Assembly (NCBI GenBank): GCA_963693285.1
Contig: OY848921.1
Location: forward strand, 3,715,497-3,779,496
Direction of reading: 5' to 3'
DNA: 64,000 bases
From: Xestospongia muta
Taxonomy: Eukaryota; Porifera; Demospongiae; Haplosclerida; Petrosiidae
Notes under the pieces: generated by a model
Database searches by the model: none
The model's input: only the letters and a program-made list of their open reading frames with translations
Told to the model about the DNA's origin: nothing
Translations under genes and position numbers: made by a program
Shown: piece after piece, positions 1,073 to 34,740 of the stretch
How positions within the stretch are numbered: the stretch's first letter is position 1
How the letters are laid out: each line of letters opens with the position of its first letter

Positions 1073-3003
1073 CTAAAGAAAGCAGGCAACTAAACTAGAG
1101 ATAATGATTATCACAAAAACCTTTTCCATAGTAGTGACATTGGTAAGGTTTATCACCAGTGTGTATATGAAGATGCATTCGGAGATGACTGCTTTAATAA
1201 AATCCGCTTCCACAGTACTGACATTGTTAACTTCTATTACCAATGTGTATACGAATATGACTTTGCAGATTACTATTATTAATAAATCTTTTTCCACAGT
1301 ACTGATTGGTAAGGTTTATCACCAGTGTGTATACGAACATGAGTTCGGAGATGAATGTTTTGATTAAATCTTTTTCCACAGTACTGACATTGGTAAGGTT
1401 TATCACCAGTGTGTGTGTTAAGAGGATTCTTCAATGTTGACCGAGAAGAAAGTTTCTTTCCACAATAATCACAAATGTTATCTGGATTTCTAGTAAGCAG
1501 TTTATTGTTGGAAATGAGCTCATTTGTATGTCTTCTTCCTTTTACAATTAGCTCATGTTTACGAATGTGGTCTTGTAACTGATATAATTCACAAAAGCTT
1601 TCCTGACATTTTGGACAAGTAAAACATTGTGGATTAGCAGTAAGACCATTAGGATTATGTCGAAGATGCAAATCAAAATTAGATTTCAAAACAAAACTAC
1701 TTCCACAATTCTTGCAATTATAAACTTGATAATCGTCTAAAAATAGATAGTAAATTTTATTTCTGCCAAAAGAATTACCTTACCTTCTTCAAAACTAGCT
1801 GTAATCCCAAGTTCTCTTGCATATTGTTCACCATACCATACATAGAGTTCATTGCCAGGATAAATATGTTTGAATGAGCGATAATAGATATTACCATGAT
1901 ACTGAAAAGCAACTAAATTCTGTTCATCCTCATTGCGAGCACAGTTAACAAATCGTAACCAATTACTTTGCTTATCTGATTGACCATCAATATAATATGA
2001 CCCCTCTCTAAAACGCCTTACCTGAATAAATTAAAATAATTAATACTTTTTATTATATTATAACAGTACCTCACACATGTAGCTAGTATCCTCTTCCTTA
2101 GTGAGTTCTTCTTTTAACACTCTCCTTCCTTCATAAGGACCAAATCTAACTCCACGAGGTATAAACTGTGTAGCAAAAACACCCAGACCAGCATTGGGTA
2201 TCCTAGAAGGTTTAACAGTTAATTCAGCTGGAACAAATACAGTAGTGTATTGTAGAGATGCTTCATCATGACCACTAGAAGGATCTAGAGTCAGTAAAGG
2301 TCTTAGGATATTGTTCACTAACTGGGCACTGAGGTATATCACCTCTGAATTAAGAAAACAACATCAGTAATACCAAAATAATCCTTCACCTTCAAAATTT
2401 TCATATTCTTCAATATTATCATCTCCAAATAACTCAAAAAACTCATTAGACAAATTGCAATCAAGCCTCTCAAATGAAGGCTCCTCCTCCTCTACAGAAT
2501 GGCAATATTTCTTCTGTTGTGATTTTTGTTGCTTCAAGACTCTCGTACTTTCGTGATCCTATCATTGACAAGGATAGCCTAACATTACAGTTACATCAAA
2601 TACATACTACATGTTCTGCTGTATCACACAGAGGGACTTTCTCTGCAGTCTCAAACTACTGGAATTAAACATATGAAAAATGATGTCCGCTATTTAATGT
2701 ACAAGTTTATTACCTCTCGTGATATCATTTAGTTTTCTCTTCATCACACAAGTCTCTAGACTAGGTGTCCATTCATCTCCACTATCACTGCTACTATTAC
2801 TACAATAACTATACCGTCTTCTTCACCTTTTTCTAACTCTATTCTTTTTTTGGGACTTAACATCTAAACCTACACAATATTTATGGCTGTTTATTTATCT
2901 TGTAATAGTATTTACCTAAAGTTTTCATGAGGTCAATATTCTTTTCAACATTCTCTAGTCTTTTCTTCTCGTAGTCGCATAATTCCTGCACTACATCTGC
3001 CAT
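1073..3003 (-). pseudogene. PRDM9-like gene, copy A (broken)
   Basis: The copy has the same exon order as copy B: start ATG at 3003, then basic exon, linker exons, SET N-terminal exon (about 2066-2300), SET C-terminal exon (1784 to about 2020) and zinc-finger exon (from 1736 down). The 47-bp intron 1737-1783 has clean borders. Several lesions are visible. A deletion fuses exon 4 to the SET exon out of frame and removes the zinc knuckle. The end and donor of exon 3 are missing near 2385. A 2-bp deletion near 1304 shifts the finger array, so the frame ends after about two array fingers. Relic fingers continue to about 1073. The PR/SET core (PNAGLGVFATQFIPRG) and finger linkers ([14 protein letters not shown]) are still readable. 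It is almost certainly non-functional as a full-length protein. Confidence 0.85.
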
Positions 3004-3100
3004 TTTGAAAACTTCAGATTAATTTGTAAACTAGATCACTATTTCCGTTAAAATACTATCCTCTCCCACCAAAAGCTTATTGGTTTTTATCAAAAATAAA
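3004..3100 (-). promoter_or_regulatory. Putative promoter of copy A, conserved between copies
   Basis: The roughly 100 bp upstream of the start is shared with copies B, E and H. On the minus strand it has a CCAAT box (aaaaaccaataagc), a ggtgggagg block and a tagtatttt segment, then ttttcaaaATGGCAGATG. The conservation could simply reflect recent duplication. Confidence 0.3.
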
Positions 3101-3446
3101 ATTTATTAATAATGGCAATATATTTTTAGTTTAAAATTTACATAGTTAATTAACAAACGCCACCTTTTCTCCTCCTGACTCTCCTCAACAACATTGGCTA
3201 CACCTTTAGGAAGATTACTAATATAATATACCTTCAGTTGTTCTGGTGATAAATCTAGTGACAGTTCTCTAGATTCTTTAGTTACCTACTACATTATCTA
3301 CAACATCATTTTGAGTTTCGTCCTCTAGATCTTAAAATTTTCCAAAAATGGTCAATCTTTTCCTTTTACATATGCAAACTCTTCGTGTCTTCTTTAATGT
3401 CAATTTTTCTATCCTTGTGAATGTAAATCATCATTAATATTAATGA

Positions 3447-4400
3447 TTAAGGACATGAGTTTGGAATTTCCCTACCTTTAAAACTACTTAAAATCACAAG
3501 TTCTTTTGCATATTTTTCAACGTACCATACATAGAGTTCATTGCCAAGATAGTACACGATATATAAACTGTGTATCTTCAAGACACCCAGACCAGCATTG
3601 GGTACCTTAGAAGGTTTAACAATTAATTCAGCTAGAACTAATACAGTAGTATACTGTAGAGATTTTATATCATGACCACTAGAAGGAACTATAGTTAGTA
3701 AGGGTACATGATGAAACTTCTCACAGTCCATAATGAAAGTTGTAGAAGCAACCGTATTCATACTGAACTTACAAAGATATTCATCGTCATTAGATAGTTC
3801 ATCTTGTCTGTATTATTTTTGGTGACTTAATGTATTAAGATATTGTTCACTAACTAGGCACATCACCACTGAATTAAGAAACTATCATCAACAATACCGA
3901 TATAATCTAACTTACACATCTTCAATATGAAATCCTTCAAAGTCTTCATATTCTTCAAAATTATCATCCCCAAATAACTTGAAAAGTTATTAGACAACTT
4001 GCAATCAAAGCTCTCAAACGAAGCACCTCAACCTTTACAGGTTGGTGATATTTCTTCTGTTCTGATTTTTGCTGCTTCAAGACTCTCATAACTTGATGAT
4101 GATCCTAACATTGAGAGGGATAGCCCAATATTACTACTACTGGAACTAAACATAAAAAATGACATCTATATTTAATGTACAAGTTTATTACCTCTCGTGA
4201 TATCACTTGGTTTTCGCTTCACACAAGTCTCAAGAGCAGGTACCCATTCGTCTCCTCTATCACTGCTACTATTACTACAATTACTATACCATCTCCTTTT
4301 CCTAATTCTACTCTTGTTTTGAGACTTAACACCTTTACAATATTTATGACTGTTTATTTAGTGTGCAATTATATTTTACCTAAAGTTTTCATGGAATGTT
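3447..4400 (-). pseudogene. PRDM9-like fragment A', internally deleted, no finger array
   Basis: Reading the minus strand from 4400 down, relics appear of the basic exon (about 4190-4330), the acidic linker exon (about 3930-4110) and the knuckle/SET exon (about 3590-3730). The PNAGLGV segment is joined directly to the end of the second SET exon (ELYVWYVEKYAKELV, near 3500). The catalytic-motif WYG is changed to WYV and the finger exon is absent. The same deletion structure returns in fragment B' (8894-9040), so the deleted form existed before the last round of tandem duplication. Confidence 0.75.
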
Positions 4401-4572
4401 CGTTACATCTATAACCTAACCTGATTCTCCTCCCCAAAATGCACTCTATGGTATTTCCTACAACAACCATTTTAACTTGATTTCAATCAAGTTGTTATTA
4501 AGATCTGGAATTCCTTCCCAGTTGTCAACTTAGATGAGTCCCCACAACTGCTCAAAAGTTTTTTTATGGAAT

Positions 4573-4697
4573 CATTGGTCTAATATAAAATTACAGGGAA
4601 GGCAATCTTATTATATCTTTCATTCAAAAGACAGCAGCTATAGCATTTGTACCACTAAAATTTGTATAAATAGCTTGGAATGCTATAACAGCGGACA
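4573..4697. repeat. 125-bp dispersed repeat, copy 2
   Basis: Near-identical to 749-873. It ends where the LINE-derived coding tail begins. Confidence 0.7.
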
Positions 4698-4699
4698 CC

Positions 4700-5110
4700 T
4701 TCTCCTCCACTTCCTCCTACTCCTCAATCCAGTCTACCTTTTTCTTGGCCCCACCTTTCCCTCTACCTTCTCCTTTTTGTCAACCTTATCCCCTACCTCC
4801 TCAACATTATTACTCATCTCTTCTCTCAACTTTTAACCTTCCAACCCTCTCATCTTGTCACTATATTAAGTCTTATCTATAAAGTTAACAACCTCCTCTA
4901 TTTTCCTTCTGATATTTTCATTCACAAATTTCTGCCAAGTTATACTTCTTGTCACTTTGATCCTCTCACATTTATCATCCCTTTTTCCCATTCATCTGCT
5001 TCACAAAAACTTATTCGTCCCTTCTTTCTCTCTCTGTGGAATTCACTTCTTTATCATGTAAAATCTAGCTCATCTCTAATCACGTTTATATCACTTTTTG
5101 TGTTTCATCC
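4700..5110 (+). mobile_element. Non-LTR retrotransposon relic, C-terminus of the reverse-transcriptase ORF
   Basis: The plus-strand translation of about 4827-5100 gives a stretch ending FIIPFSHSSAS...RPFFLSLWNSL followed by about 20 residues. This is the characteristic C-terminal tail of CR1/L2/Jockey-type RT proteins, where a conserved FxxxxIRxWNSL motif closes the ORF. A related tail lies on the minus strand at 22600-22916. The polymerase motifs are missing, so only the 3' end was integrated or kept. The family assignment is from the tail only. Confidence 0.6.
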
Positions 5111-5329
5111 TCTACATCTTGAGATAATTCTATTGTCTTTATAGTTTGCTTGTCCTCTTTTTTAACTTCATTTCAGTTTATTAATACTCTTCTTGTCAAG
5201 AATATTTCAGTAAAATGATCTCAAATCATTATGTTTAGTGACATCATTCATTTCGATTGTAAGATTAACTTAATTACTTTTAACAAACATTATAACTAAC
5301 TTAGCAATTATTATAACTAACTTTCATCG

Positions 5330-5560
5330 GAGAGAGCCAGCTGTTGAGAGAGGCAAGCATCACTGGGTGATAAACGTTATACAGACACTGTGGAAGTTTA
5401 AATTTAGTGACAATCTTCAGCAATGATAAAAATCTCTATCATTGAACTGTTTTTCATATAGCATCTCCCTAGGATTAATTAGTAAGACTTGAAAACCTAG
5501 CTATAAACAGTTTATATCTACTGTAATTGTGTAATAACCACTGCTATCACTGATTAAAGT
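5330..5560 (-). pseudogene. Remnant of a cadherin-like beta-sandwich exon (inter-copy unit 1)
   Basis: A diverged copy of the coding-like block at 9060-9300. The surrounding sequence (ggagagagccagctgttgag) is shared with all inter-copy units. The frame is broken here. Confidence 0.4.
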
Positions 5561-5775
5561 GTTAACTTGACTTCACTTACTCCACTGTGTTAACTTGACT
5601 TCGCTTACTCCACTGGCTACAATGACACTGTACTCTGTGTAAGGGCAAGGAACTTTGGGACTACTTACCCAGGAGCTACTTTAACTTCTCTAGACCTGCA
5701 TTGTCGATTGTTTGTTACTATGGTAACTTAATAAAGTGAAAATAAATAATGATTAGGAAATATTAATTATTTTAG

Positions 5776-6167
<392 letters not shown>

Positions 6168-8449
6168 TTAACTTTTATTACCAATGTGTATACGAATATG
6201 ACTTTGAAGATTACCATTATTTCTAAATCCTTTTCCACAGTACTGACATTGGTAAGGTTTATCACCAGTGTGTATACGAACATGAGTTCGGAGATGACCG
6301 CTTTGATTAAATCTTTTTCCACAGTACTGACATTGGTAAGGTTTATCACCAGTATGTATACGAAGATGAGTTTGGAGATTACTATTATTAATAAATCCTT
6401 TTCCACAGTACTGACATTGGTAAGGTTTATCACCAATGTGCATACGAACATGAGTTCGGAGATGACTGTTTTGATTAAATCCTTTTCCACAGTACTGACA
6501 TTGGTAAGGTTTATAACCAGTGTGTAGGCGAAGATGAGCATGGAGATTACTATTATTACTAAATCCTTTTCCACAGTACTGACATTGGTAAGGTTTATCA
6601 CCAGTGTGTATATGAAGATGATTCTTCAATGATGACCTAGAAGAAAGTTTCTTTCCACAATAATCACAAATGTTATCTGGATTTCCAATAAGCAGTTTAT
6701 TGTTGGAAATGAGCTCATTTGTATGCCTTCTTCCTTTTACATCAATTAGCTCATGTTTACGAATGTGGTCTTGTAACTGATATAATTCACAAAAGCTTTC
6801 TTGACATTTTTGACAAGTGAAACATTGTGGATTAGCAGCAAGACAATTAGGATTATGTCGAAGATGCAAATCAAAATTAGATTTCAAAACAAAACTACTT
6901 CCACAATTCTTACAATTAGAAAGTTGATAATCGTCTAAAAATAGATAATAAATTTTATTTCTGCCAAAACAATTACCCTACCTTCTTCAAAACTAGCTGT
7001 AATCCCAAGTTCTCTTGCATATTGTTCACCATACCATACATAGAGTTCATTATCAGGATAAATATGTTTGAATGAGCGATAATAGATATTACCATGATAC
7101 TGAAAAGCAACTAAATTCTGTTCATCCTCATTGCGAGCACAGTTAACAAATCGTAACCAATTACTTTGCTTATCTGATTGACCATCAATATAATATGCCC
7201 CCTCTCCAAAACGCTTTATCTGAATTAATTAAAATAGTTAATACTTTTTATTATATTATAACAGTACCTCCCACATGTAGCTAGTATTATCTCCCTCAGT
7301 GAGCTCTTCTTTTAACACTCTCCTTCCTTCATAAGGACCAAATCTAACTCCACGAGGTATAAACTGTGTAGCAAAAACACCCAGACCAGCATTGGGTATC
7401 TTAGAAGGTTTAACAGTTAATTCAGCTGGAACAAATACAGTAGTGTATTGTAGAGATGCTTCATCATGACCACTAGAAGGATCTAGAGTCAGTAAGGGTC
7501 CATGAACAGGACAATCACCATGATGAAACTCCTCACAGTCCTCACAAACTAGTAATGAGAGTTGTAGAAGCAACTATATTAATACTTAACTTACAGAGAT
7601 ATTCATCTTCATCAGATAGTTCATCTTCTCTGTATTCTTTTTGGTGAGTTATTCTCTTAGGATATCGTTCACTAACTGGGCACTGAGGTATATCACCACT
7701 GAATTAAGAAAACAACATCAGTAATACCAAAATAATCCTACTTACATATCTTCAATATCAAAACCTTCAAAATCTTCATATTCTTCAATATTATCATCTC
7801 CAAATAACTCGAAAAACTCATTAGACAAATTGCAATCAAGCCTCTCAAATGAAGGCTCCTCCTCCTCTACAGAATGGCAATATTTCTTCTGTTGTGATTT
7901 TTGTTGCTTCAAGACTCTCGTACCTTCGTGATCCTAACATTGACAAGGATAGCTTAACATTACAGTTACATCAGATACATACTACATGTTCTGCTGTATC
8001 ACACAGAGGGACTTTCATTGCAGTCTCAACTACTGGAATTAAACATATGAAAAATGATGTCCGCTATTTAATTAGTCTCGTCCCCAGACCTACACGCAAG
8101 CTTAAAGCTTGCGTGTAGGTCTGGGGACGAGACTACTATGTAATGTACAAGTTTATTACCTCTCGTGATATCATTTAGTTTTCTCTTCATCACACAAGTC
8201 TCTAGACTAGGTGTCCATTCATCTCCACTATCACTGCTACTATTACTACAATAACTATATCGTCTTCTTCTCCTTTTTCTAACTCTATTATTTTTTTGGA
8301 ACTTAACGTCTAAACCAACACAATATTTATGACTGTTTATTTATCTTATAATAATATTTACCTAAAGTTTTCATGAGGTCAATATTCTTTTCAACATTCT
8401 CTAGTCTTCTCTTCTCGTAGTCGCATAATTCTTGCACTACATCTGCCAT
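6168..8449 (-). CDS. PRDM9-like PR/SET and C2H2 zinc-finger protein, copy B, eight exons, frame open
   Basis: Exons on the minus strand are 8362-8449, 8160-8315, 7983-8032, 7746-7933, 7595-7698, 7268-7548, 6982-7219 and 6168-6934. They total 1872 nt, so 623 residues plus stop. Residues 1-30 hold DYEKRRLENVEKNIDLMKTL, then a basic RKRRRR patch and an acidic linker. A zinc knuckle CEDC-x7-CPVH lies at 197-211, with the spacing of the PRDM9 knuckle. A PR/SET domain spans about 240-365 ([34 protein letters not shown]). Tyr352 matches the catalytic tyrosine of PRDM9 (H3K4/K36 methyltransferase). Two spaced zinc fingers and six tandem fingers follow. Oddities: the acceptor of exon 2 is TG instead of AG, with an in-frame AG 6 nt downstream (giving 621 residues); and PDNEL replaces PGNEL before the catalytic motif. 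Meiotic function is inferred from homology only. Confidence 0.85.
8073..8135. mobile_element. 63-bp perfect palindromic MITE with 9-bp target duplication
   Basis: Two perfect 31-bp arms (tagtctcgtccccagaccta...) flank a single central A at 8104. The flanks are ctatttaat (8064-8072) and ctatgtaat (8136-8144), 8 of 9 identical. Copy A shows the empty site (ctatttaatgtac, about 2690). It lies in the second intron of copy B. A 9-bp duplication is typical of Mutator-like elements; a related end (gggacgagacta) occurs near 52290. Confidence 0.85.
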
Positions 8450-8545
8450 TTTGAAAACTTCAGATAAACTTGTAAACTAGATCACTATTTCCGTTAAAAA
8501 TACTATCTCCTCCCACCAAAAGCTTATTGGTTTTTATCAAAAAAC
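8450..8545 (-). promoter_or_regulatory. Putative promoter of copy B
   Basis: On the minus strand, upstream of ATG 8449, the CCAAT box, ggtgggagg block and tagtatttttaa are retained as in copy A. The start context aaaATGG is strong. No transcription start can be placed from sequence alone. Confidence 0.3.
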
Positions 8546-8599
8546 AAATTTATTAATAATAGCAATATATTTTTAGTTAAAAATTTAGATGGTTAATTA

Positions 8600-8790: not shown

Positions 8791-8893
8791 AAAAATGGTC
8801 AATCTTTTCCTTTTACGTATGCAAACTCTTCGTGTCTTCTTTAATGTCAATTTTTCTATCATTATGAATGTAAATCATCATTAAAATTAATGA

Positions 8894-9040
8894 TTAAGAA
8901 CATGAGTTTAGAATTACCCTACCTTTAAAACTACTTGAAATCACAAGTTCTCTTGCATATTTTTCAACATACCATACATAGAGTTCATTGCCAAGATAGT
9001 ACACGAGGTATAAACTGTGTAGCTTCAAGACACCTAGACG
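8894..9040 (-). pseudogene. PRDM9-like fragment B' (SET remnant)
   Basis: It contains the end of the second SET exon (ELYVWYVEKYARELV) fused to a short piece of the first, with the same fusion as fragment A'. It breaks off at about 9037 against the cadherin-like remnant. Confidence 0.7.
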
Positions 9041-9059
9041 AGCAGTTTTATAACTAACT

Positions 9060-9499: not shown

Positions 9500-11620
<2,121 letters not shown>

Positions 11621-11699: not shown

Positions 11700-13260
11700 A
11701 CAGTGAGCAAGATGGCACTTATCAAGAAGCCTATTACACGTGAAAATGCCAACTCTGCTGAAGTTTTACTTTCTCAATTTTTGACTCCCTACGCATTACA
11801 ACATGTACAAAAGCAGTTATCATTGTGTAAGAATGTTGTTGTCAATACAGATGAAGATGGTACACACACAGTTACATCTGGTGAAGGTCCTATTGGTGGC
11901 ACACGTACATTACTAACTGATTCTTAATTAGGTAGTTTAACTGTCACAAGTAATTCTTGTCACTACAAGTTTACTAACATCATGAATCTTCCTTGTCATC
12001 ACATATTTGCTGTATGTGGTAAAGGTGGACTTCCATTGTTCTCAACAGTTAATGTCTCAAATAGATGGAGTATTTGCTATCTTAAAGTTTTTGAAAAAAA
12101 TGTAGTTGTGATGATTCTGTGAGTGATGAGTTATATCAGGTAGGTAAACATAATTATAATTGTGCAACGTGTATTGTATTATTTATGTGTAGATCAATAC
12201 TTTATCAACTGAAACTAGTCAAACAGTACTCTCTCAACATGGAAAATTTCATAAAGCTAAATCAATGATTGATAAACTTCCTCCACTAGCTTCTGAAGTT
12301 GATATGAGTGAATTTTCTCAGCAAATGAAGGTGCTTGAACAGCTACATGATATTTGGTTTCATGGTGGTAAAGCTATTGTGAATGTGGATAAACAATTAA
12401 TGGATAAAAATGTATTTGATGACGATGAAGGTAAAAGATAGGTTATGATTAATGTCATTCTTTCATTTAAATCAGAAAATCTTGAGAAACTTTATCAGTT
12501 GTGTGTGGATGAGACGGAAATTCAGGATTCCACTCAAATTACACATGATGTAAAAAGCTCTTAGTTTAATGAGTTGAATATAGATGCTGGAGTTGATAAT
12601 AGTGAAGAAAATGATGACGTTTTATGTGGTAATAGTCAGAATGAAGGTATAACTTGAATTATATAGTTGTATATTACATATTACATAATACATTCAGTGT
12701 CATGTGTATTCATACAAAAAAAGTTTCCTCCTAAAATGAAGAAAAGAGGAAGACCAAAAGGGATCAGAAAAAACAGTTATTGGTCTTCCTAAAAAAAGGT
12801 CAACAAACCAGATGCATTTTTTAAAAAAAATACCAATTGACAGGGAAAAAGGTAAATCTAAAAGTTATCTTGTTACTAATATTATTCATGTGTTAGCTAT
12901 TTTGCTATGGTTTGTGGATACAGTAATTGTAGAAGCCGCTATTTCTAGAAGAATCCTCATTGATGAAATTCATATTGAGACTAAACCTGAAAAGCTTACA
13001 GCTCCTTTTATTGATGAAAATGTATACTTAGAAGTTTGTAAAAAATATTACACAAGAAATGGCTGGCTAGCCTTAAAATATGTCATCAAGACAATCAAAT
13101 CTAATCCAATTTACTATTGTGGAAGCTGTACAAAGAGTATTGATGAAGAAACTGAAAACTCTATACAATGTGATAATTGTTTTATATGGTATCATTTTGG
13201 GTGTATAAATTTAATTAGAAAGCCCAAGTCTCACGTCTGGTTTTGTCGTTCATGTTATTA
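11700..13260 (+). pseudogene. MULE/ZSWIM-type protein: C-terminal half with SWIM and PHD fingers
   Basis: The frame from 11703 reads LTPYALQHVQKQLSL, then after an in-frame TAA (about 11925) a SWIM-like zinc motif CHYKF-x5-NLPCHHIFAV-x6-GLPLFS. Following exons (acceptor tgtgtag at about 12190; donors at about 12433 and 12645) encode a linker with KMKKRGRPKG, an AT-hook-like motif. A 1-nt insertion near 12765 precedes the last part. The 3' end is a PHD finger YYCGSC-x12-CDNCFIWYHFGC-x13-WFCRSC (about 13110-13258). The architecture matches the C-terminus of SWIM-containing Mutator-like transposases; the DDE core is absent. At least three disabling changes are seen. It interrupts copy C and probably removed its first exon. 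Confidence 0.7.
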
Positions 13261-13270
13261 ATTGATTCAT

Positions 13271-15129: not shown

Positions 15130-17150
<2,021 letters not shown>

Positions 17151-17917: not shown

Positions 17918-18520
17918 TTAGTAAGGTTTATCTTCAGTGTGTATACGAATATGAGTTTTGAGATTACTGCTTTGATTAAATACTTTTCCACAGTACTGAC
18001 ATTGGTAAGGTTTATCACCAGTGTGTATACGAAGATGTTTTTGGAGATTACCGCTTTGATAAAATCCTTTCCCACAGTACTGACATCGGTAAGGTTTATC
18101 ACCAGTGTGTATACGAACATGATTTTGAAGATCATAATTACGACGAAATCCTTTTCCACAGTACTGACATTGGTGACGTTTATCACCAGTGTGTATACGA
18201 ACATGATTTTGAAGATCATAATTACGACAAAATCCTTTTCCACAGTACTGACATTGGTGAGGTTTATCACCAGTGTGTATATGAAGATGAGCTTGGAGAT
18301 TAACCTTTTTACAAAATCCTTTTCTACAGAACTGACATTGGTAAGGTTTATCACCAGTGTGTATACGAAGATGAACTTGGAGATTATAATTTTGACGAAA
18401 TTCTTTTCCACAAAACTGACATTGGTAAGAGTTATCACTAGTGTGTATACGAAGATGTCTCCTCAATGATGACTGAGAAGAAAGTTTCTTTCCACAATAA
18501 TCACAAATGTTATCTGGATT
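17918..18520 (-). repeat. 84-bp zinc-finger minisatellite of copy E
   Basis: Seven tandem 84-bp units encode fingers whose predicted contact residues (helix -1, 2, 3, 6) are SSSR, QYNV, KVNA, RYDN, RYDN, QGNK and QSNT, while the framework is nearly constant. Because 84 is a multiple of 3, the antisense and alternative frames are also open, so long overlapping ORFs here are by-products. Two adjacent units (RYDN, RYDN) look like a recent duplication. Confidence 0.85.
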
Positions 18521-20215
18521 TCCAAATAGCAGTTTATTGTTGGAAATGAGCCCATTCGTATGTCTTCTTCCTTTTAAATCAATTAGCTCATGTTTACGAA
18601 TGTGGTCTTGTAACTGGTATAATTCACAAAAGTTTTCTTGACATTTTTGACAAGTAAAACATTGTGGATTAGCAGCAAGACAATTAGAATTATGTCGAAG
18701 ATGCAAATCAAAATTAGATTTGAACACAAAACTACTTCCACAATTTTTACAATTATAAAGTTGATAATCGTCTAAAAATAGATAGTAAATTTTATTTTTG
18801 CCAAAACAATTACCCTACCTTCTTCAAAACTAGCTGTAATCCCAAGATCTCTTGCATATTGTTCACCATACCATACATAGAGTTCATTACCAGGATAAAT
18901 ATGTTTGTATGAGCGATAATAGATATTACCATGATACTGAAAAGCAACTAAATTCTGTTCATCCTCATTGCGAGCACAGTTAACAAATCGTAACCAATTA
19001 CTTTGCTTATCTGATTGACCATCAATATAATATGATCCCTCTCTAAAACGTCTTACCTGAACAAATTAAAATAATTAATACTTTTTATTATATTATTACA
19101 GTACCTCCCACATGTAGCTAGTATCCTCTTCCTTAGTGAGTTCTTCTTTTAACACTCTCCTTCCTTCATAAGGACCAAATCTAACTCCACGAGGTATAAA
19201 CTGTGTAGCAAAAACACCCAGACCAGCATTGGGTATCTTCGAAGGCTTAACAGTTAATTCAGCTGGAACAAATACAGTAGTGTATTGTAGAGATGTTTCA
19301 TCATGACCACTAGAAGGATCTAGAGTCAGTAAGGGTCCATGAACAGGACAGTCACCATGATGAGATTCCTCACACACATCACAAACTAGTAACCAAAGTT
19401 GTATAAGTAAATATATTTATATTATACTTACAAAGATATTCATCTTCATCAGATAATTCATCTTCTCTGTATTCTTTTTGGTGACTTAATCTCTGAGAAT
19501 ATCGTTCACTAACTGGGACCTTAGGTACATCACCACTGTATTAAGAAAACAACATCAGCAATACTGATATAATCTAACTTACACATCTTCAATATCAAAT
19601 CCTTCAAAGTCTTTATATTCTTCAATATTATCACCTCCGAATAACTCAAAAAACTCATTAGACAACTTGCAATCAATGCTTTCAAATGAAGGCTCCTCCC
19701 CTTCTACAGGTTGGTAACATTTCTTCTGTTGTGGTTTTTGTCGCTTCAAGACTCTTGTAACTTGATGATCCTAACATTGAGAGAGATAGCCCAACATTAC
19801 ACTTAAATCAAATATATATTTACCACATGTTCTGCTGTATCACACAGATGGACTCTCACTGCACTCTCAACTACTGGAACTAAACATAAAAGAATGACGT
19901 CTACATTTAATTTACAAGTTGATTACCTCTCGTGATATGATTTCGTTTTCTCTTCATCACACAAGTCTCTAGACTAGGTGTCCATTCATCTCCACTATCA
20001 CTGCTACTATTACTACAATTACTATATTGTCTTCTTCTCCTTTTTCTAACTCTACTCTTTTTTTGAGACTTAACATCTAAACCTACACAATATTTATACT
20101 GTTTATTTATATTGTAATACTATTTACCTAAAGTTTTAATGAGCTCAATATTCTTTTTAATATTCTCTAGTCTTTTCTTCTCATAGTCGCATAATTCTTG
20201 CACTACATCTGCCAT
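17918..20215 (-). CDS. PRDM9-like PR/SET and C2H2 zinc-finger protein, copy E, eight exons, intact
   Basis: Exons are 20128-20215, 19927-20082, 19824-19873, 19583-19770, 19432-19535, 19105-19385, 18819-19056 and 17918-18771. They total 1959 nt, so 652 residues plus stop, and all introns have GT/AG borders. The N-terminal module has DYEKKRLENI and a basic RKRRRR patch, a likely nuclear signal. The zinc knuckle CDVC-x7-CPVH spans 197-211. The PR/SET domain (about 240-365) keeps [18 protein letters not shown] and [10 protein letters not shown] with the catalytic tyrosine at about 352. Two spaced fingers precede seven tandem 28-residue fingers with TGDKPYQCQ linkers. The family trimethylates H3K4 and H3K36 at sites chosen by the fingers. 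This is the best-preserved copy. No KRAB domain is seen. The meiotic role is inferred. Confidence 0.9.
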
Positions 20216-20989: not shown

Positions 20990-21870
20990 TTTAGATAAAT
21001 ATGAAGATGAGTTTGGTGATTACTTTTACTACAAACTCCTTTTCCACAGTGCTGACATTGGTAAGGTTTATCACCAGTGTGTATACGAAGATGTTTATGG
21101 AAATTACAATTATCACCAAGTCTTTTTCCATAGTACTAACATTGGTAAGGTCTATCACCAGTGTATATACAAAGATGATTTTAGAGTTCAGTAAGGGTCC
21201 ATAAAAAGGACATCACCATGATGAAACCTCTCACAGTCCTCAGAAACTAGTAACGAAAGTTGTAGGAGCAACCATATTTATACTAAACTTACAGATATGT
21301 TCATCTTCATCAGATAGTTCATCTCCTATGTATTCTTTTTGGTGACTTAATCTATTAGAATATCATTCACTAACTGGACACTGAGGTACATCACCACTGT
21401 ATTAAGAAAACAACATCAGCAATACTGATATAATCTAATGTTGTTATTATGATAGCTTAATAAAGCACAGTAAAGAAATTGTAACCAATAACTCTGCTTA
21501 TCTGATTGACCATCAATATAATATGAGACTTTTTATATAATACTTTTTATTATATTATTATATTTTCATTATATTATTACAGTACCTCTCAATACTGATA
21601 TAATATAACTTACACATCTTCAATATCAAATCCTTCAAAGTCTTCATATTCTTCAATATTATCATCTCCAAATAACTCAAATCATCATTAGACAACTTGC
21701 AATCAATGCTCTCAAATGAAGGCTCCTCCCCTCTATGGTTGGTAATATTTCTTCTGCTGTGGTTTTTGTTGCTTCAAGACTCTCATAACTTCATGTTTCT
21801 TTTCAACATTCTCTAGGCCTCTCTTCTCATAGTCCCATTATTCTTACAATACATCAGCCTGCCACGCAAT
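20990..21870 (-). pseudogene. PRDM9-like gene, copy F (large deletion)
   Basis: Only two fingers remain (21001-21190). They are joined directly to the knuckle region (gggtccat...aaactag, about 21195-21250), so the whole SET domain is gone. Linker exons, a displaced piece of the second SET exon (about 21470-21530) and a relic first exon (about 21795-21863) follow. A second repeat with the same two-finger fusion occurs as copy I (33420-34740), so F and I descend from one rearranged ancestor. Confidence 0.8.
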
Positions 21871-22304: not shown

Positions 22305-22306
<2 letters not shown>

Positions 22307-24484
22307 TGGCTTTACAGTCCAGAAATAAAAGATAGAATAAATAAAATGAGTTTAAGTGATAAGACGTTTGAGATGCACTGAGGGTCTGTTGTATCAAGTA
22401 CAAGCAGCCGTGGATAATGTCAGTGTAAGTCTAAGTCTGGTATATTACTAGTCGTGGAAAATAGGAGGAGAATGAGTACTGAAACATTTGGAACAAGGAG
22501 AAAGATAGTGGTAAGAACACGGATTTGAGGAGTGAAAATTGGACCAGAAGAGGTTAATAATAGTGTTTTGAGAGGGTTGACTGATAAGGTCAGGTCCAGA
22601 GGAGGGAGAGAGTTCCAAAGACGTGGGAATCTAATAAAATAGAAGTGACTGCCATTGTTGGTAAGAGTAGATGAATAGACTAATTTTTAATGGAATGAGC
22701 TTCTAGTGTTACCTTAGTGAAGTGGAGATAATGGAGGATGTTGAAGTTTCTGAATGGATTTTTAATGCTGTTAATGAAGAACAAGATGTCATTGAGTTTA
22801 AAACGATACGTTAGTGGAAGGAGATAAAGTGTTTGGAGTTGATACTTGTAGTCCGAATCATACTCATTTAATATAAATTTTGTAGCCCGTCTCTGTATTT
22901 GTTTTAATGATTGCATGTCTTTGAGGAGGTGGGGTCACCAAATTTGCGAACAATAGCTAAGTTGGGATCTAATGAGACTAATGTAAAGTAGTTTCTTGGC
23001 AGATTGTGAATTTATAGAGGAAAATTAATGCTAAGTAGACCTAGTAGTTTGTAGGCTCGAGTACTGGTTGTAGTGGTTGTTCCAGGAGAGGTTGCTAGAG
23101 ATGATGATTCCAATGTCTTTGTGATGACTGTGCAAGGAAATGGTGTTATTATCTACATGGTAGCTATATGTTGTGTAAGGAGAATGACTGTGAAAGGAGA
23201 TTTGTACAAATTTGAGAACATTGATGAGAAGGTGGTTGTTGTTGCTTCAGTTCTAGAGAGATGAGAGATCGAGTTGGAAGTAAGTACAGTCATCATGATT
23301 CTAGATACATTTGAAACATTTGGTGTCATCTGCAAACGAGAGTAGTTCAGAGAATAAGACAGTGGAAATGAGGTCATTAATATAGATCAGTAAAAGTAAT
23401 GGGCCCAAGATACTACCCTGGGGGACCCCAGAGAGTACTGGTAGGAAATTGGAGGAGTGTTGGTTGATAGAAACACATTGTTTTCTAAATGTAAGGTAGG
23501 CTTTAAACCACAGCCAGAGGTTAACATTTATCCCACAAGACCAGAACTTAATGAGTAGGTTATTATGGGGGACACTGTCAAATGCTTTACAGAAGTCCAG
23601 GTAGACGGAATCCAACTGGCATTTGTTATAAAATGATAATATAATGTTGTGAATGAAAATGAGAAGCTGTTGTAGTGACGATTGACCACAAAGGAAATCA
23701 AATTGTGACTGAGGTATGGAAGGAATGATGAAGTCAATTATTTTATTGAAGATGATGAGCTCAAGTACTTTGGATATGATACATAGTAGGGATATTGGTC
23801 TGTAGTTCTTCACTGAGAACCAGTCACCAGATTTGAAAATGGGGGTTACTGAGTGAGTGGTCCAGTCTGATGGAAGGTAGTGATGATGAAGTGAGAGGTT
23901 GAATAGATGGTTGATGGGTTGATGTAAAGCAACAGCATTAGCCTTAAGAACTAAGGGGCTAATGTTGTCAATACCCATAGCTTTGTTTGAGTCAAAGGAG
24001 ATAAGGGTCGTGTAGACATCAAGTTCAGTTATTTTGATACTATAAGGGAAGGTGAAACTGAATGGAGATCATCCATAGATGGTAGCTCAACAGAACTTGA
24101 GGTGAAGACTGAATGAAAGTACTGGTTGAACAAAGTGGCTTTCTCTAGGTCAGACAGAGTGCTGAGAGAGTCTAGGTAAACAGTAGGAGGAATTGAATTG
24201 TGTTTGGTGAGGTTTCTGATATGTTGGAAGACTTTAGGTCTGCAGTTCGATGAATAGTTGAAGATGAGAGAGGCTTTGTAGTTAGATTTAGTTTGGTGGA
24301 TATCATAATCGAGAGATGTTTCCAGGTTAGAGATGTTAATTTGTTTAGAAGGTGTTGGGTGAATGCAGTGAGAGCGTCTCAAAGATTTGAGACAGTTGAT
24401 ATTGTGCCTGATGGTATAGGAGAACCACTTGGGGTGGGGGTTGGGGTGGAGATATACAGTTGGTACAAAGAGATCAACAGCTAT
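22256..24484 (-). mobile_element. Non-LTR retrotransposon (CR1/L2/Jockey-like), 5'-truncated, decayed
   Basis: The minus strand reads RT motifs in order: VTPIFKSGDWFSVKNYRPIS, YLDFCKAFDSVPH (motif A, 23560-23620), LSGVPQGSILGPLLLLIYIN (motif B) and FADDTKCF (catalytic motif C, about 23310). After a stop the frame resumes through SAKKLLYISLIRSQLSYCSQ, QRRATKFILNEYDSDYKYQL and the WNSLP-type tail near 22620. The endonuclease domain is missing, so the copy begins inside ORF2 at about 24440. Stops near 22985, 23200 and 23300 make it inactive. It abuts the palindrome at 24484 and ends in (ATT)n. Confidence 0.85.
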
Positions 24485-26986: not shown

Positions 26987-27149
26987 GTGACAGTGACACT
27001 GTATTCTGTTACACAGCACTAGAACTTTGGGACTAGTTGCTCTGGAACTACTTCAATATCTCTAAATATGCATTGTTCATTGTTTGTATAGTGTTGTTGC
27101 TATAGTAATTTAATAATATATAATGTAAATGATTAGCAAAACAATTAAA

Positions 27150-28205
<1,056 letters not shown>

Positions 28206-28371
28206 GTTGTATAAATAATTATGCTGAAAAATTTGAGGATAACATTTGATACTACAGTGTTGACATGAACAATGAATTTGTTACTACACTATATATATTC
28301 TTGTACCATTGAAATTCTACCCATGATTGTCAATCAAAGAAGTATCAAAACCTTGTCACAATATGGATAAC

Positions 28372-28830
28372 TAATAAGAACAAATAGACTTTTAACATCA
28401 TTACCAGATGAAATCATTGACAACACCATTAATGATGTGAAGCATTATTTCACTGATCATACCTGGTATGAATTACTACAGAGAGATATATCTAAATATC
28501 CAATGTAAAGAATTATTTTATTTGTTTCTTGGTATGGTAAAAGAATGTATAAATTAAACATGTTTTGTCTTTCTATAACCTTTGATCCAACATACAATTA
28601 CCACAATTTTACTTACATTAAATAGGAACTTCGTTAACATCAAACATCCTCCCACTTTTGAATGGTATTGTATTACGTGCTTAACATCTAAGAAGACCAG
28701 ACAAAACTCATCAAAACGTCTAACACAATTCATACAATGATAACTTCATTAACAGACGACCTTACCTTGAATTTACTTCATTATAATAATATAAAGCAAT
28801 ACACAGTAGATGATTATGAATGTTCATGTG
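28372..28830 (+). pseudogene. Coding-like remnant, unrecognised
   Basis: A plus-strand frame reads RLLTSLPDEIIDN, then VKHYFTDHTWYELLQRDISK, and meets a possible donor (ccaat/gtaaag, about 28505). After an acceptor (attaaatag, about 28625) it continues HPPTFEWYCITCLTSKKTR, with a zinc-ligand-like WYCxxC. A further open stretch (LTLNLLHYNNIKQYTVDDYE) ends at about 28838. The family is not known; WYCxxC could be the end of a PHD-like finger. Confidence 0.35.
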
Positions 28831-28927
28831 ATGACTAGTTTTCACGTGATAGACCAAAACAATCAAATGAATTATTAACATTAAGTAGCTTCATTCTGTG
28901 ACTAGCCGCTTTGGGATTGTTGCTGAA

Positions 28928-29892
28928 ATGGAGTTCTTACCTTCTAACTCACTTTCCAATCATTGCAATGGATCTTTTACTAAGAGTCAAATGAACCATT
29001 TGTTGATAGCAATGACAAGTACTAGTGCTGTATCAACTCTAATGTGTATTGTAACAAGCATTAGTTCTTTCTCGAAAGTTATACAAATATTTTGTTTACC
29101 GATTAACAATTTACCAAGTTGTGGCTGCGTTATTGTTTAGTATGACTGAATGTCTGGTTGTATTAAATATGAACTATAGAAGCAGTCTATTTTATTCCAT
29201 TACCTGCAAGACAACAGCTTTTCTTATCCAATATACAATGTGGGTAAAACTTCTATTTACATTGTGTCTAGTCTTTCATATGTTTTGTCTGGCTGTGTGT
29301 TTGAAAAATTTTGTGAAACTAGATGTCATCTACATTTTGCTGTCTGTGCTGTTTCCTTTACTTCATGTCTGGATTCCATTTATTCACAACTCATATGGCA
29401 TAGCAAATGCATGGTGTTGGATACGAAATTGGAATGACAACTGTCCTAATAGCAAGTACAAGGAAGGAATTATAGAACAATTTGTATTGTGGTATGGACC
29501 TCTTTTTGTATCTCTTATTGTCTGTTTCTTTATGGTTATTGCCACCATTTTTATTTTAATTCATAGAGCTTGTAGATACCATGAAGCAGAGGCTGAACCA
29601 CTGATGATTAGCCAAGAACAAAATCGTAACAAGACTGCTTTAAAACAACTCCTACCATTGCTGGCATATCCAATTGTATTCTATATGTTAGTTCTCTTTC
29701 CCATGCATGGTTGATCGTATCTATGGAGCTATATCTTCACATAGCAGCTATAACTTAGCAATGGTTCATTTAGTTACAAATGGGCTGTCGGGATTTTTCT
29801 CTAGACTAGCACTTCTAATTCATGTCACATTTCTACGAAAATCTCATTATCAGAAGCATCACCGTTCCGTTCCTCTGTCAACGGAGCAGTAG
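28928..29892 (+). pseudogene. Seven-transmembrane receptor (cAMP-receptor/GPR157-like GPCR), two frameshifts
   Basis: A single exon starts at ATG 28928 (MEFLPSNSLSNHCNGSF, a glycosylation-type N-terminus). Seven hydrophobic segments can be read: TM1 in the first frame, TM2-TM6 from about 29075 to 29700 in a second (YQVVAALLFSMTECLVVL opens TM2), and TM7 (NGLSGFFSRLALLIHV) back in another. An extracellular loop has NAWCWIRNWNDNC, typical of this family's loop 2 cysteine. Breaks are a 1-nt indel at about 29062-29073 and a 4-bp tandem duplication CATGCATG at 29702-29709. Removing either would restore continuity, so decay is young or these are assembly errors. Confidence 0.75.
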
Positions 29893-30204
29893 CAGATACA
29901 AATATTTACACAAGATATAGCTCTTTTCTTTTCCTGAGCTTGTACATCATTTGCCAGGAAATATTGCTTAAGCCTCTCTGCATAAGATAACCAGGTCTCT
30001 TTTCCCAGAGTAAATTCTCCTACAGAACCATGAGTTGCCTTTGAAGTTTTACCCTCGTCGCCAATTGTGATGTCCTGATCACTTTATTACACTGACCAAA
30101 ACTATCATGAACAACTAACAAAGAGGTCAACTTAAATACATGTAGAACAATTGAGGCTAATTTACACATTAACAAAAGATATACAAGAGAAAGGACAATG
30201 TAAC
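29893..30204. other. No gene seen
   Basis: Non-coding stretch between the receptor pseudogene and the TIR element. Confidence 0.4.
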
Positions 30205-31148
30205 TATAGTATGTCCAAGTTGAGAAGAGCCCCTTATTAAAAAAAAGGTGTTTTATACATGGATGTAAGGTGAGGTATTTCCTCACTTAATCATAATCAA
30301 TTAGCGCGAAGTGCATTTTAATTGTATTCATTATTTGTTCACGTGAATATCATGGAAGCAAACCACGTTTTCTCTCGTGTTAGTAAGGGTGCTTCTTGGT
30401 GTAACTTGACTGATGATGTAACAACATGTACTATGATGACATCGCTATGTGTCATAGAGTTAATAATGTTAGGTTTGGTTTAGAGTTTAGGCGATGTCAT
30501 CATATATGATGACATCACTATGTGTCATTTCATTATGATGCCATCATAGTCAAGTTACACCAAGAACCACCCCCCAATGGGAAGAGACTGAAGACTCAAA
30601 CAAAGCAGGTTTTTGTGCATGTCTATGACTATTTCAAGGTACTCAACAAGTGCAAACGTACTCAAGGACCTCTTTAAAGTACAGCTAATGCCACAGGACT
30701 TTCATGTACCAGCATCAAGAGGCTACAGAAAGAGAGAGTCTTCCTTCTTTATTAAATGTTTTTTTTCAGAACCATGGTGGCTTAATAGCTGCCTTAAATC
30801 GCAAAAGACTATACCTGATTATTATTTTTTTATAATAATAATAGTCATAAGAAATTAGAATTGTAATTTTCAATTTCCTCGTGACACATGGCTGACTTCT
30901 TGAGGTGAAAATTGTTATTCGTTAAATCCTCGAAAGTGTGTAATTTGAAGTATGACGAAGGTATGCCATTGAAAATGTATGGAGTTTTTTAGTTTGCTAC
31001 TTTCTCGTAGCACTGGACAGCCAAATTTTATATATAAAATGCAAGTTTGCAAGCTGAATCGATTGGTTCAAGTTCCATGTAGATAGCATGTAAAACGGCA
31101 AAGTTATTTACATGTCTGGGTGGCTCTTCTCAACTCGGACATACTATA
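30205..31148. mobile_element. 944-bp TIR DNA transposon, non-autonomous
   Basis: Terminal inverted repeats of 27 bp: 30205-30231 (tatagtatgtccaagttgag plus aagagcc) and 31122-31148, one mismatch. The flanking TA pairs would fit a TA target duplication as in Tc1/mariner elements, but the ends are themselves TA-rich. No transposase frame is present. Relatives lie at 26440-26986 and 63101-64000. Confidence 0.8.
30387..30573. mobile_element. Hairpin MITE nested in the TIR transposon
   Basis: The left arm gggtgcttcttggtgtaact (30387 on) is inverted at caagttacaccaagaaccac (to 30573). Within it gatgtcatcatatatgatgacatc forms a second stem. It lacks a counterpart in the other transposon copies seen here. 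Confidence 0.7.
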
Positions 31149-31467
31149 TAACAAAGTATAAATATGCTAATAAGAAGCAATTAACAAAATTATAATTGTA
31201 TAATCCTAAATTTACACTATTTAACACATCTAAAGTTAGTTTACCACAAATGAAAAGTAATTCTAATAGATTACTTTATACTGTATTACTTTATTAAGCT
31301 AACATCTGTAGCAAGTAAACTCCTAAGTAAAAAAGCAAGCAAAATAAAAAATGAAGGTACTATAATAATCATAATTGAAATACAGAGTAAATTTCATTCG
31401 TCGTTTTCAGAATCTGTTCCCTCAGGTTCATATTCAGTTATGGCAATAGTAGATGTAATGCTATCCT

Positions 31468-31930
31468 ATAAAAGATTATATCAATACACTCGCCTTCCCT
31501 TTGGAGTCCACTCAGCACCAGCAATCTTTCAGCAAACAATAGAAGGCATTTTGAGAGGTATTAAGAATGTGGCTGTCTATATTGACGATATTCTCATTAC
31601 AGATGTCAGAAGAAGAGCGCCTGCAAACATTGGACAAAGTGTTGAGTCGACTAGAAGTAGAGGGGATGCGGCTAAAGCGAGACTGGTGCGCCTTTATGCT
31701 CTCAAGGGTTGAATACCTTGGGCATGTCATAACAGCTGAAGGGCTACACCTAGCTGAAGACAAAATACGAGCTATTTTGAAAGCTCCGGCTCCCGACAAT
31801 GTGGCAATTTACGTTCATTTATTGGTCTAGTGAACTATTATGGAAAGTTCCTTCATCAACTATCTACAATGTTAGCACCACTTTACACTCTATTACAAAA
31901 GAATATGAAATGGTTTTGGGGACCAGATCA
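31468..31930 (+). mobile_element. Ty3/Gypsy reverse-transcriptase fragment
   Basis: The plus strand reads LYQYTRLPFGVHSAPAIFQQ and VAVYIDDILIT (catalytic YIDD, about 31580). It then shifts by one base to LSRLEVEGMRLKRDWCAFML and VEYLGHVITAEGL, and shifts again to FIGLVNYYGKFLHQLSTMLA ending KWFWGPDQ. These are consecutive Gypsy RT segments with two frameshifts. LTRs, protease, RNase H core and integrase are missing. It joins the SET exon of copy H directly at 31930/31931. Confidence 0.85.
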
Positions 31931-32650
31931 ACTAAATTCTGTTCATCTTCATTGCGAGCACAGTTAACAAATCGTAACCAATTACTTTGCTTATCTGATT
32001 GACCATCAATATAATATGACCCCTCTCTAAAACGCCTTACCTGAACAAATTAAAATAATTAATACTTTTTATTATATTATTAACTCAAAAAACTCATTAG
32101 ACAACTTGCAATCAATGCTTTCAAATGAAGGCTCCTTCCCTTCTACAGGTTGGTAACATTTCTTCTGCTGTGGTTTTTGTTGCCTCAAGACTCTAGTAAC
32201 TTGATGATCCTAACATTGAGAGGGATAGCCCAACATTACACTTACATCAAATACTTACCATATGTTCTGCTGTATCTCTCAGAGGGACTCTCACTGCACT
32301 CTCAACTACTGGAACTAAACATAAGAGAATGATGTCCACATTTAATTTACAAGTTGATTACCTCTCATGATATCATTTGGTTTTCTCTTCATCACACAAG
32401 TCTCTAGACTAGGTGTCCATTCATCTCCACTATCACTGCTACTATTACTACAATTACTATATCGTCTTCTTCTCCTTTTTCTAACTCTACTCTTTTTTTG
32501 CGACTTAACATCTAAACCTACACAATATTTATACTGTTTATTTATCTTGTAATAGTATTTACCTAAAGTTTTCATGATCTCAATATTCTTTTCAATATTC
32601 TCTAGTCTTTTCTTCTCATAGTCGCATAATTCTTGCACTACACCTGCCAT
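31931..32650 (-). pseudogene. PRDM9-like gene, copy H (5' part only)
   Basis: From ATG 32650 the first exon (MAGVVQELCDYEKKRLENIE), basic exon, short exon and acidic linker exon are intact in sequence. The linker then breaks at about 32090 into a fragment of the second SET exon (31931-32045), with the knuckle, SET N-terminal half and fingers gone. Here the first intron is 45 nt and happens to be open in frame; in other copies its length differs, which argues that it is an intron. Confidence 0.8.
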
Positions 32651-33419
32651 TTTGAAAACTTCAGACTAGCTTGTAAACTAGACCACTATTTCCGTTAAAA
32701 ATACTAGCCCCTCCCACAAAAGTTTGTTGTTTTTTTCAAAAATAGAATTTGTTATTAATAATAATATTTTTAAGTAAAAAATTTAGATGGTTTAATCATC
32801 ATCTGTTGAAATTGTAGGTTTTGATAGTTATTAAGCAGACATAGCAATATCTTCATTTGTTTATTTAGCAAAAAACGTTGTCTTCTCCTCTTGACTCTCC
32901 TCCAACATTGGCTACACTTTCAGTAAGATTATCACTATGAACTATTTTGAGTTTTTTCATCATGTTCAGATGATAAATCTGGTGACAGTTCTCTAGATTC
33001 TTTAGTATCTACTACATTATCTACAATATCATTTTGAATTTCATCCTCTATATACATCTTGAGATAATTCTATTGTCTTTATAATTTCTTTGTCCTCTTT
33101 TGTTTTTACTTTCATTTCCGTTATATTAACTGAACTGTTTTTCTTGTAGCATCTCTTTAGGATTGGTAAGACTTCAAATGTCTAGCTAGAAACAAATTAA
33201 CACCTGCTTTCATCGTATAAGAAGCACAGTTATCACTGGTTACAGGCGTTAAGTTGATTTCACTTACTTCACTAACTACATTGACACTGTATTTTGTTAA
33301 TGGGCTCTAGAACTTTAGGACTAGTTGCCCTGGAGCTACTTTAATATCTCTAGATCTGTACTGTTCATTGTTTGTATAGTGTTGTTGCTATAGTAATTTA
33401 ATAAAAACAATCAATTATT

Positions 33420-34740
33420 TTAGATAAATATGAAGATGAGTTTGGTGATTACTTTTACTACAAAATCCTTTTCCACAGTGCTGACATTGGTAAGGTTTAT
33501 TACCAGTGTGTATACGAAGATATGTATGGAAATTACCATTATCACCAAGTCTTTTTCCATAGTACTAACATTGGTAAGGTTTATCACCAGTGTGTATACG
33601 AAGAAGAATTTAGAGTTCAGTAAGGGTCCATGAAAAGGACAGTCACCATGATGAAACTTCTCACAGTCCTCACAAACTAGTAACAAAAGTTGTAGAAGTA
33701 ACCATATTCATACTGAACTTACAGAGATATTAATCTTCATCAGATAGTTCATCTTCTCTGTATTCTTTCTGGTGACTTCATGTCTTAGAATACCATTCGC
33801 TGACTGGACACTGAGAAACATCACCACTGTATAAAGAAAACAACATCAGCAATACTGATATAATCTAATGTTGTTATTATGATAACTTAATAAATCACAG
33901 TAAAGAAGTCCTAACCAATTACTCTGCTTATCCGATTGACCATCAATATAATATGACACTTTATATAATACTTTTTATTATATTATTACAGTACCTCCCA
34001 CATGTAGCTAGTATCTTCTCCCTCAGTGAGCTCTTCTTTTAACACTCTCCTTCCCTCATAAGGACCAAATCTAACTCCACGAGGTATAAACTGTGTTGCA
34101 TAAACACCCAGAGCAGCATGGGTATTTTAGAAGGTTTAACAATTAATTCAGCTAGAACAAATACAGTAGTGTATTGTAGAGATGCTTCATCATGATCACT
34201 AGAAGGATCTAGAGTTAGTAAGGATCGCCATGATGAAATTTCTCAATTATCACAAACTAGTAACAAAAGTTGGAGAAGTAACGATATTCATACTGAACTT
34301 ACAGAGATATTCATCTTCATCAGATAGTTCATCTTCTCTGTATTCTTTTTGGTAACTTAATCTATGAGGATATCATTCACTAACTGGACATCACCACTGT
34401 ATTAAGAAAACAACATCAGCAATACTGATATAATCTAACTTACACATCTCCGATATCAAATCCTTCAAAGTCTTCATATTCTTCAATATTATCATCTCCA
34501 AATAACTCAAAGAAAACATTAGACAACTTGCAATCAAGGCTCTCAAATGAAGGCTCCTCCCCCTCTAGAGGTTGGTAATATTTCTTCTGCTGTGGTTTTT
34601 GTTGTTCAAGACTCTCGTAACTTCACGATTCTTTTCAACATTCTCTAGGCTTCTCTTCTCATAGTCCCATTATTCTTACAATACATCAGCCTGCCATGCA
34701 ATATTTGATCCTACACTGTTCTTTGTCCTAGGACCAAAAA
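33420..34740 (-). pseudogene. PRDM9-like gene, copy I (large deletion)
   Basis: Two fingers (33430-33610) fused to the knuckle (CEDCEKFHHGDCPFHGPL, about 33620-33680) reproduce the rearrangement of copy F. A second set of exons follows: a short piece of the second SET exon (about 33900-33960), a first SET exon with indels (33990-34230), a linker exon (34440-34600) and a relic first exon (about 34610-34700). It is non-functional. Confidence 0.8.

Follow-up and report, generated by a model that had tools for sequence, protein, structure and literature searches.

A multiplied family of PRDM9-type genes in a sponge genome: a candidate repertoire of recombination hotspot specificity

PRDM9 chooses the sites of chromosome recombination in mammals, and recombination directed by it has been studied mostly in vertebrates. 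Why, then, should a sponge carry PRDM9-type genes in series, and could they set hotspots there? The question is raised by a 64-kb stretch of the Xestospongia muta genome (C5:3715497-3779496, hereafter the window), where PRDM9-type units are repeated on the minus strand from about position 1073 to 34740. Searching exon by exon with exons 1-7 of one unit, copy E, we found 13 exon chains in this interval. A sequence-only reading of the window had described nine copies sharing the order basic N-terminus, zinc knuckle, PR/SET domain, spaced finger and long finger array. The order was recovered, with a C2H2 array of 84-bp repeats at its end, but the count was not: there are 13 chains, and only copies B and E are complete. 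The same reading had called these two open over eight exons, and so they are; all seven introns of each are GT-AG and 45-127 bp long, and the open frames encode 621 (B) and 654 (E) amino acids. In both, a stop falls within the array and finger sequence goes on beyond it. Their layout, in window positions, is as follows.

Copy E, 17918..20215, minus strand: complete eight-exon open frame of a putative PRDM9 co-orthologue, 654 amino acids; a stop cuts the array.
Copy E, exons 1-4, minus strand: 20215-20128, 20082-19927, 19879-19824, 19770-19583.
Copy E, exons 5-8, minus strand: 19535-19432, 19385-19105, 19056-18819, 18771-17918.
Copy E exon 1, 20128..20215, minus strand: half-KRAB motif, the C-terminal half of the KRAB-A box.
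Copy E exon 5, 19432..19535, minus strand: block at the SSXRD position, immediately 5' of the zinc knuckle.
Copy E exon 6, 19105..19385, minus strand: zinc knuckle and first half of PR/SET.
Copy E exon 7, 18819..19056, minus strand: second half of PR/SET, including C321, Y341 and Y357.
Copy E exon 8, 17918..18771, minus strand: spaced finger and C2H2 array of 84-bp repeats.
Copy B, 6168..8449, minus strand: complete eight-exon open frame of a putative PRDM9 co-orthologue, 621 amino acids; a stop cuts the array.
Copy B, exons 1-4, minus strand: 8449-8362, 8309-8160, 8032-7983, 7933-7746.
Copy B, exons 5-8, minus strand: 7698-7595, 7548-7268, 7219-6982, 6934-6168.

Most of the family lies outside the window. 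Across the genome searched (158.0 Mb in 28 contigs), the PR-domain profile gave 64 matches, and PRDM9 genes form three clusters: C5 0.787-0.880 Mb (C5a), C5 3.68-3.75 Mb (the window together with C5b) and C1 14.66-14.70 Mb. Exon chains likewise number 64, over six regions (window 13, C5b 8, C5a 33, C1 8, C2 1, C6 1), so that C5a and C1 hold the greater part; the single C2 match has its second PR/SET exon split between two frames. We counted a copy as full-exon when exons 1, 2, 4, 5, 6 and 7 were present, exon 3 being undetected in most C5a and C1 copies. By this definition 32 of the 64 chains are full-exon copies, and in 27 of these the frame stays open until a stop in the final exon (window 2, C5b 2, C5a 18, C1 5). 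An ATG starts 26 of the 27 open models, 24 combine an ATG with at least six C2H2 fingers in all, and 16 (15 with an ATG), B and E not among them, run on past the last finger to the family's own terminus. The open models average 692 codons without an in-frame stop, against an average of 73 stops in the two other frames, and the best PR-domain profile matches in the window reach E 2.6e-39; PRDM9-type units of this kind are therefore not a product of chance. One open C1 model (14669119) is without an ATG and part of the SET domain and was excluded from the residue, tree and N-terminal/SET diversity counts below, which cover 26 rows; in the open C5a model 873135, a stretch of exon 4 is out of step with the other copies.

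In a tree of the copies, the window cluster adjoins the last C5a gene, 878222 (support 100/98), where exon 3 was likewise detected, and the C1 cluster groups with four C5a copies (88/91), inside the diversity of C5a. The window cluster is a mostly decayed part of a larger PRDM9 family. Within C1:14667871-14699096, PRDM9 exon chains recur at an offset of 24,851 bp.

How close to PRDM9 are these genes? Copy E matches the Pfam PR domain at 8.5e-45 and PRDM9 in the PDB comparison at 2.4e-42. Against solved structures, PR/SET scored 134.1 bits with PRDM9, 98.8 with PRDM14, 94.9 with PRDM12, 80.5 with both PRDM2 and PRDM1, 75.3 with PRDM5 and 68.5 with PRDM11. The nearest database relatives, among the matches listed, are sponges: Amphimedon queenslandica (62% identity), Halichondria panicea (61%) and Dysidea avara (54%). 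A PR/SET tree of 46 rows (9 of our 26 copies, 33 of the 120 listed database rows, three PDB rows and a gene on C6) holds our copies together at 100/97, places them as sister to Amphimedon at 96/86 and unites the sponges at 95/95; together with the database relatives, this position bears out the suspicion of a non-bilaterian genome. A branch with 97/97 support separates every PRDM9 row from PRDM14, PRDM12 and the C6 gene, in a tree where the C6 row is short and the C6 and PRDM12 branches are long. The subfamily to which the PR/SET domains belong was a point on which the sequence-only reading had agreed in advance to be judged: they group with PRDM9, apart from PRDM12 and PRDM14, which with the C6 gene serve as outgroups, and the other PRDMs of the PDB, PRDM11 included, are set apart by their far lower scores only. 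The C6 gene itself (L031, C6:1606974-1607228) is a different PRDM whose nearest solved structure is PRDM14, only slightly ahead of PRDM11 and PRDM12.

The accompanying parts agree with this placement: the zinc knuckle is present upstream of SET, the spaced finger downstream, and the C2H2 array of 84-bp repeats sits within a single exon. C321, Y341 and Y357 are found in 26 of 26 copies and Y276 in 21. We number by the mouse row, in which C321 and the three catalytic tyrosines were placed by counting; three such tyrosines are named in Baker 2017 (PMC5519329). The ratio of nonsynonymous to synonymous differences (pN/pS), from simple pairwise counts with no tree, is 0.45 for knuckle plus SET and 0.60 for the N-terminus. 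These features make the sponge genes almost certainly PRDM9 orthologues, as far as sequence can establish it, and the PR/SET domain very probably an active methyltransferase. As a separate observation, all four C1 copies examined have F at the catalytic Y276 position, and the methylation specificity of the whole cluster might have changed.

The N-terminus bears directly on function. The sequence-only reading had described the units as PRDM9 "minus KRAB", which proved too strong. A profile of sponge and cnidarian N-termini matches those of vertebrate PRDM9 at the second half of KRAB (hhalign, 98.1%), and the part recognised is the C-terminal half of the KRAB-A box, encoded by exon 1. We too had at first accepted the absence of KRAB on the Pfam result, and dropped it once the N-terminal motif aligned with vertebrate KRAB. 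Over the whole genome, Pfam KRAB gave three weak matches of up to E 1, none of them in the PRDM9 clusters; these look unlike KRAB by eye, the half-KRAB profile matches none there, and we rejected them. The half-KRAB motif is also present in Dysidea P0002 and P0003, Halichondria P0004, Ephydatia P0005 and Nematostella P0012, and Dysidea P0006 shows none; the Amphimedon record P0001 starts at the zinc knuckle. A database search with the Nematostella N-terminus, word-limited to 22 candidates, found only itself. Exon 5 encodes a block at the SSXRD position, which matches lancelet at 1.9e-12, two sharks at only 0.026, and mammalian proteins with a Pfam SSXRD (P0070, P0073) nowhere below 0.05; an SSXRD search of the genome gave no match, but the controls were equally silent. 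Vertebrate PRDM9 appears unable to direct breaks without KRAB, and the fingers of partial orthologues evolve slowly (Baker 2017, PMC5519329; Cavassim 2022, PMC8892340). The half-KRAB matters for this reason, and if it does KRAB's work, the sponge genes would count as nearly complete PRDM9.

If these copies were to direct breaks, partner genes would be of interest, and the same genome contains candidates. The zf-CW profile found two matches genome-wide (24 of 24 candidates scored), each followed by PWWP in exons that we joined by hand. Of the two, the CW gene on C8 was compared with the PDB, where ZCWPW1 is the nearest match to its CW part. Genes of the ZCWPW1/2 type thus co-occur with the PRDM9 copies; ZCWPW1/2 and PRDM9 are coupled in their presence across vertebrates (PMC8892340). 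A SPO11-type domain is present (38.8 bits), one piece of MEI4 lies barely above the cut-off (26 against 25 bits), and a locus on C10 matches DMC1 in five exons and RAD51 in three, a locus on C9 fitting RAD51 better. Any animal that reproduces sexually should have SPO11-, MEI4- and DMC1-like genes, and their presence is no specific sign of control by PRDM9.

The finger arrays vary where a DNA-binding repertoire would be expected to vary. Twenty-six arrays carry 25 different strings of contact residues, and the contact positions -1, 2, 3 and 6 hold 43% of the diversity over 21 positions, against 19% if it were even (202 array fingers). In these 202 fingers pN/pS is 1.41 at contacts and 0.58 at the other 17 positions; with the 185 full-length fingers only, the values are 1.44 and 0.76. 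Eight chosen recent pairs, in which two copies occur twice each, show a nonsynonymous density of 0.162 at contacts against 0.041 elsewhere, and a pN/pS of 1.55 against 0.67; finger exchange may contribute to this contact divergence. Concerted evolution within arrays, as in vertebrate PRDM9, was tested and not seen: internal fingers of an array are 0.839 identical, against 0.841 when shuffled within the cluster, and 422 of 500 shuffles are as high. This suggests that fingers are drawn from a pool shared among the arrays of a cluster. A birth-and-death cluster with diversifying fingers, as proposed from the letters of the window, is thus real. A separate C2H2 cluster of 40 fingers at C4:10426100-10477500 (L033-L037) shows contact diversification stronger than that of the PRDM9 arrays, and is possibly a KRAB-ZNF-like family of sponges.

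The explanation that we favour, with a confidence lying midway between doubt and belief, is that these genes are co-orthologues of PRDM9 multiplied within one sponge lineage, whose paralogue repertoire would hold hotspot specificity. For at least one copy, we put a predicted hotspot role at an even chance. The open copies combine half-KRAB, the SSXRD-position block, zinc knuckle, PR/SET, spaced finger and an array of 84-bp repeats. Mechanistically, copies would bind differing DNA sequences in germ cells and trimethylate H3K4 and H3K36 there; these marks would be read by the two ZCWPW-type proteins, and the marked sites would be used for SPO11 breaks. Specificity would rest on a set of paralogues, which swap fingers and are lost by decay as seen in the window, and not on the alleles of a single gene.

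Several observations weigh against this explanation. The first half of KRAB went unrecognised, and in copy E Pfam reports no KRAB and no SSXRD. F replaces Y at position 276 in 5 of 26 copies (four from C1, one from C5b), 5 of the 32 full-exon copies are broken, and 11 of the 13 window chains are broken or partial. Other results speak against a distinctive hotspot signature in the arrays. We computed Baker's P, the within-array share of diversity at contact sites, for arrays of four or more tandem fingers, which removed 2 of our 27 arrays and 4 of 11 control arrays. It is no higher than in controls: the median is 0.337 for 25 arrays (0.288-0.656) and 0.346 for seven controls (Mann-Whitney p 0.25), the controls having been chosen as strong finger-profile matches that may themselves evolve fast. 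In Baker 2017 (PMC5519329), complete orthologues span 0.331-1.0 and partial ones 0.158-0.331, with one at 0.524; our median is at the bottom of the complete range and just above nearly all partial orthologues. The control C2H2 cluster on C4 has a pN/pS of 3.34 at contacts and 0.41 elsewhere, and another on C1 has 0.65 and 0.51. Contact-residue diversity alone therefore shows no hotspot role, because it does not stand out from the few other C2H2 arrays examined in this genome.

What else could have produced such a family? The copies might be PRDM9-derived C2H2 proteins multiplied against transposons or repeats in the manner of KRAB-ZNF regulators, with no part in break placement. KRAB-ZNFs typically duplicate in tandem while their contacts diversify (PMC6116924). 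The second C2H2 cluster of this genome shows the same contact pattern, and reverse transcriptase pieces lie between the window copies. Against such an origin, which we consider rather unlikely, PR/SET keeps its catalytic residues and remains under purifying selection, no canonical KRAB of the TRIM28-binding kind was recognised by sequence, and H3K4me3 and H3K36me3 do not serve as silencing marks.

A real contender, which we rate clearly below an even chance, is a mixture in which recombination is directed by a single copy or a handful, most of the rest being recent duplicates that drift neutrally towards decay. The broken copies just listed would fit it, as would the 11 of 27 open models that stop within the array or otherwise short of the family terminus, the existence of near-identical copies and a pN/pS of 0.45-0.60, above strong constraint. 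However, 27 of the 32 full-exon copies are open despite an average synonymous divergence between copies of about 0.13 (knuckle plus SET), a divergence at which stops had time to accumulate. The closest copies, a C1 pair 99.95% identical over 3729 bp, are either a very recent duplication or an assembly artefact, and haplotypes or expanded repeats could in principle have raised the copy number throughout. This we regard as very improbable: after this pair, identity falls to 97.7% and 97.5% in the closest that remain, and copies are ordered on single contigs, with C5a starts 2.6-7.3 kb apart.

Tentatively, and with more doubt than confidence, we envisage, at the base of animals, a PRDM9 system of many genes: more than 20 paralogues on two contigs, most of them keeping all of the catalytic residues and sharing a common stock of fingers, would jointly specify recombination sites through an ancestral half-KRAB and ZCWPW readers. 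If so, turnover of paralogues, not of alleles, would answer the Red Queen of hotspot erosion, and sponges would have parted from other animals only after the KRAB module and recombination directed by PRDM9 had arisen. Since one sponge combines a PRDM9 repertoire with ZCWPW-type genes and a half-KRAB, the age of PRDM9-directed recombination becomes testable, as do the origin of KRAB and whether many loci can meet hotspot erosion.

The remaining PRDM9 pieces of the window are listed below.

Copy A, 1098..3003, minus strand: exons 1-4, 7 and part of 6, array broken, without a complete frame; within 3003-1785, the exon search recognised neither exon 5 nor the beginning of exon 6.
Fragment between A and B, 3477..4330, minus strand: pieces of exons 2 and 4-7.
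Small exon 7 fragment, 8924..9010, minus strand: from the exon search.
Copy C, 9511..11605, minus strand: exons 3-8, exon 6 split over two frames; exons 1-2 not found.
Copy D, 15137..17147, minus strand: exons 3-8; exons 1-2 not found.
Fragment F, 21294..21858, minus strand: two chains with pieces of exons 1, 4, 5 and 7.
Copy G, 27159..28199, minus strand: end of exon 6, exon 7 and array; 5' part not found.
Copies H and I, 31930..34690, minus strand: partial copies in three chains.
H/I chains, 31930..34690, minus strand: exons 1-4 and part of 7; exon 5 and part of 6; exons 1 and 4-6 partly, and part of 7.

Other elements share the window. A PHD finger closes a plus-strand open frame at 12740-13261, between copies C and D, and the reverse transcriptase pieces lie at 23301-24068 and 31254-31712. 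An open frame at 29055-29714 has several hydrophobic stretches and resembles a seven-helix receptor by eye, with no Pfam match; open frames at 44321-45711 resemble a DDE transposase by eye, the piece at 44554-45102 being without a Pfam match. Further along are a tandem repeat of 112 bp (38629-39902, 11.4 copies, 88% match) and a large AT-rich satellite (54754-60673, period 144/285 bp, about 41 copies).

Multiple PRDM9 copies are already known in vertebrates. Our literature search, made on titles and the starts of abstracts and covering few subscription papers, returned no sponge PRDM9 cluster and no KRAB piece in sponges; in it, no precedent appeared for the size of the repertoire, the shared finger pool, ZCWPW-type genes beside PRDM9 in a sponge, or a sponge or cnidarian half-KRAB. 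With vertebrate PRDM9, the sponge genes share the PR/SET group, zinc knuckle, catalytic residues, spaced finger, last-exon array of 84-bp repeats and ZCWPW-type genes in the genome; they differ in having only the second half of KRAB, an SSXRD-position block that Pfam does not call, more than 20 open copies and fingers common to several loci. Other sponge and cnidarian PRDM9-like genes (Amphimedon, Halichondria, Dysidea, Ephydatia, Nematostella) have the same PR/SET and pre-knuckle block, whereas the 27 open copies here stand against at least one to three rows per species in other sponges, among the 120 of 170 matches listed. Concerted finger evolution is described in Nematostella, Lottia and Capitella (PMC2779102). 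Lineage-specific duplication is shared with the multi-copy vertebrates, for which Baker 2017 (PMC5519329) gives eight copies in the catfish Ictalurus and, in cattle, three in the table and six in the text; these are fewer than in the sponge, and the catfish copies are without KRAB and SSXRD and have P values of 0.18-0.32. Finally, tandem birth and death with diversifying contacts is common to this family and to KRAB zinc-finger clusters, from which the sponge genes are set apart by an apparently catalytic PR/SET domain and by doing without a full KRAB box.

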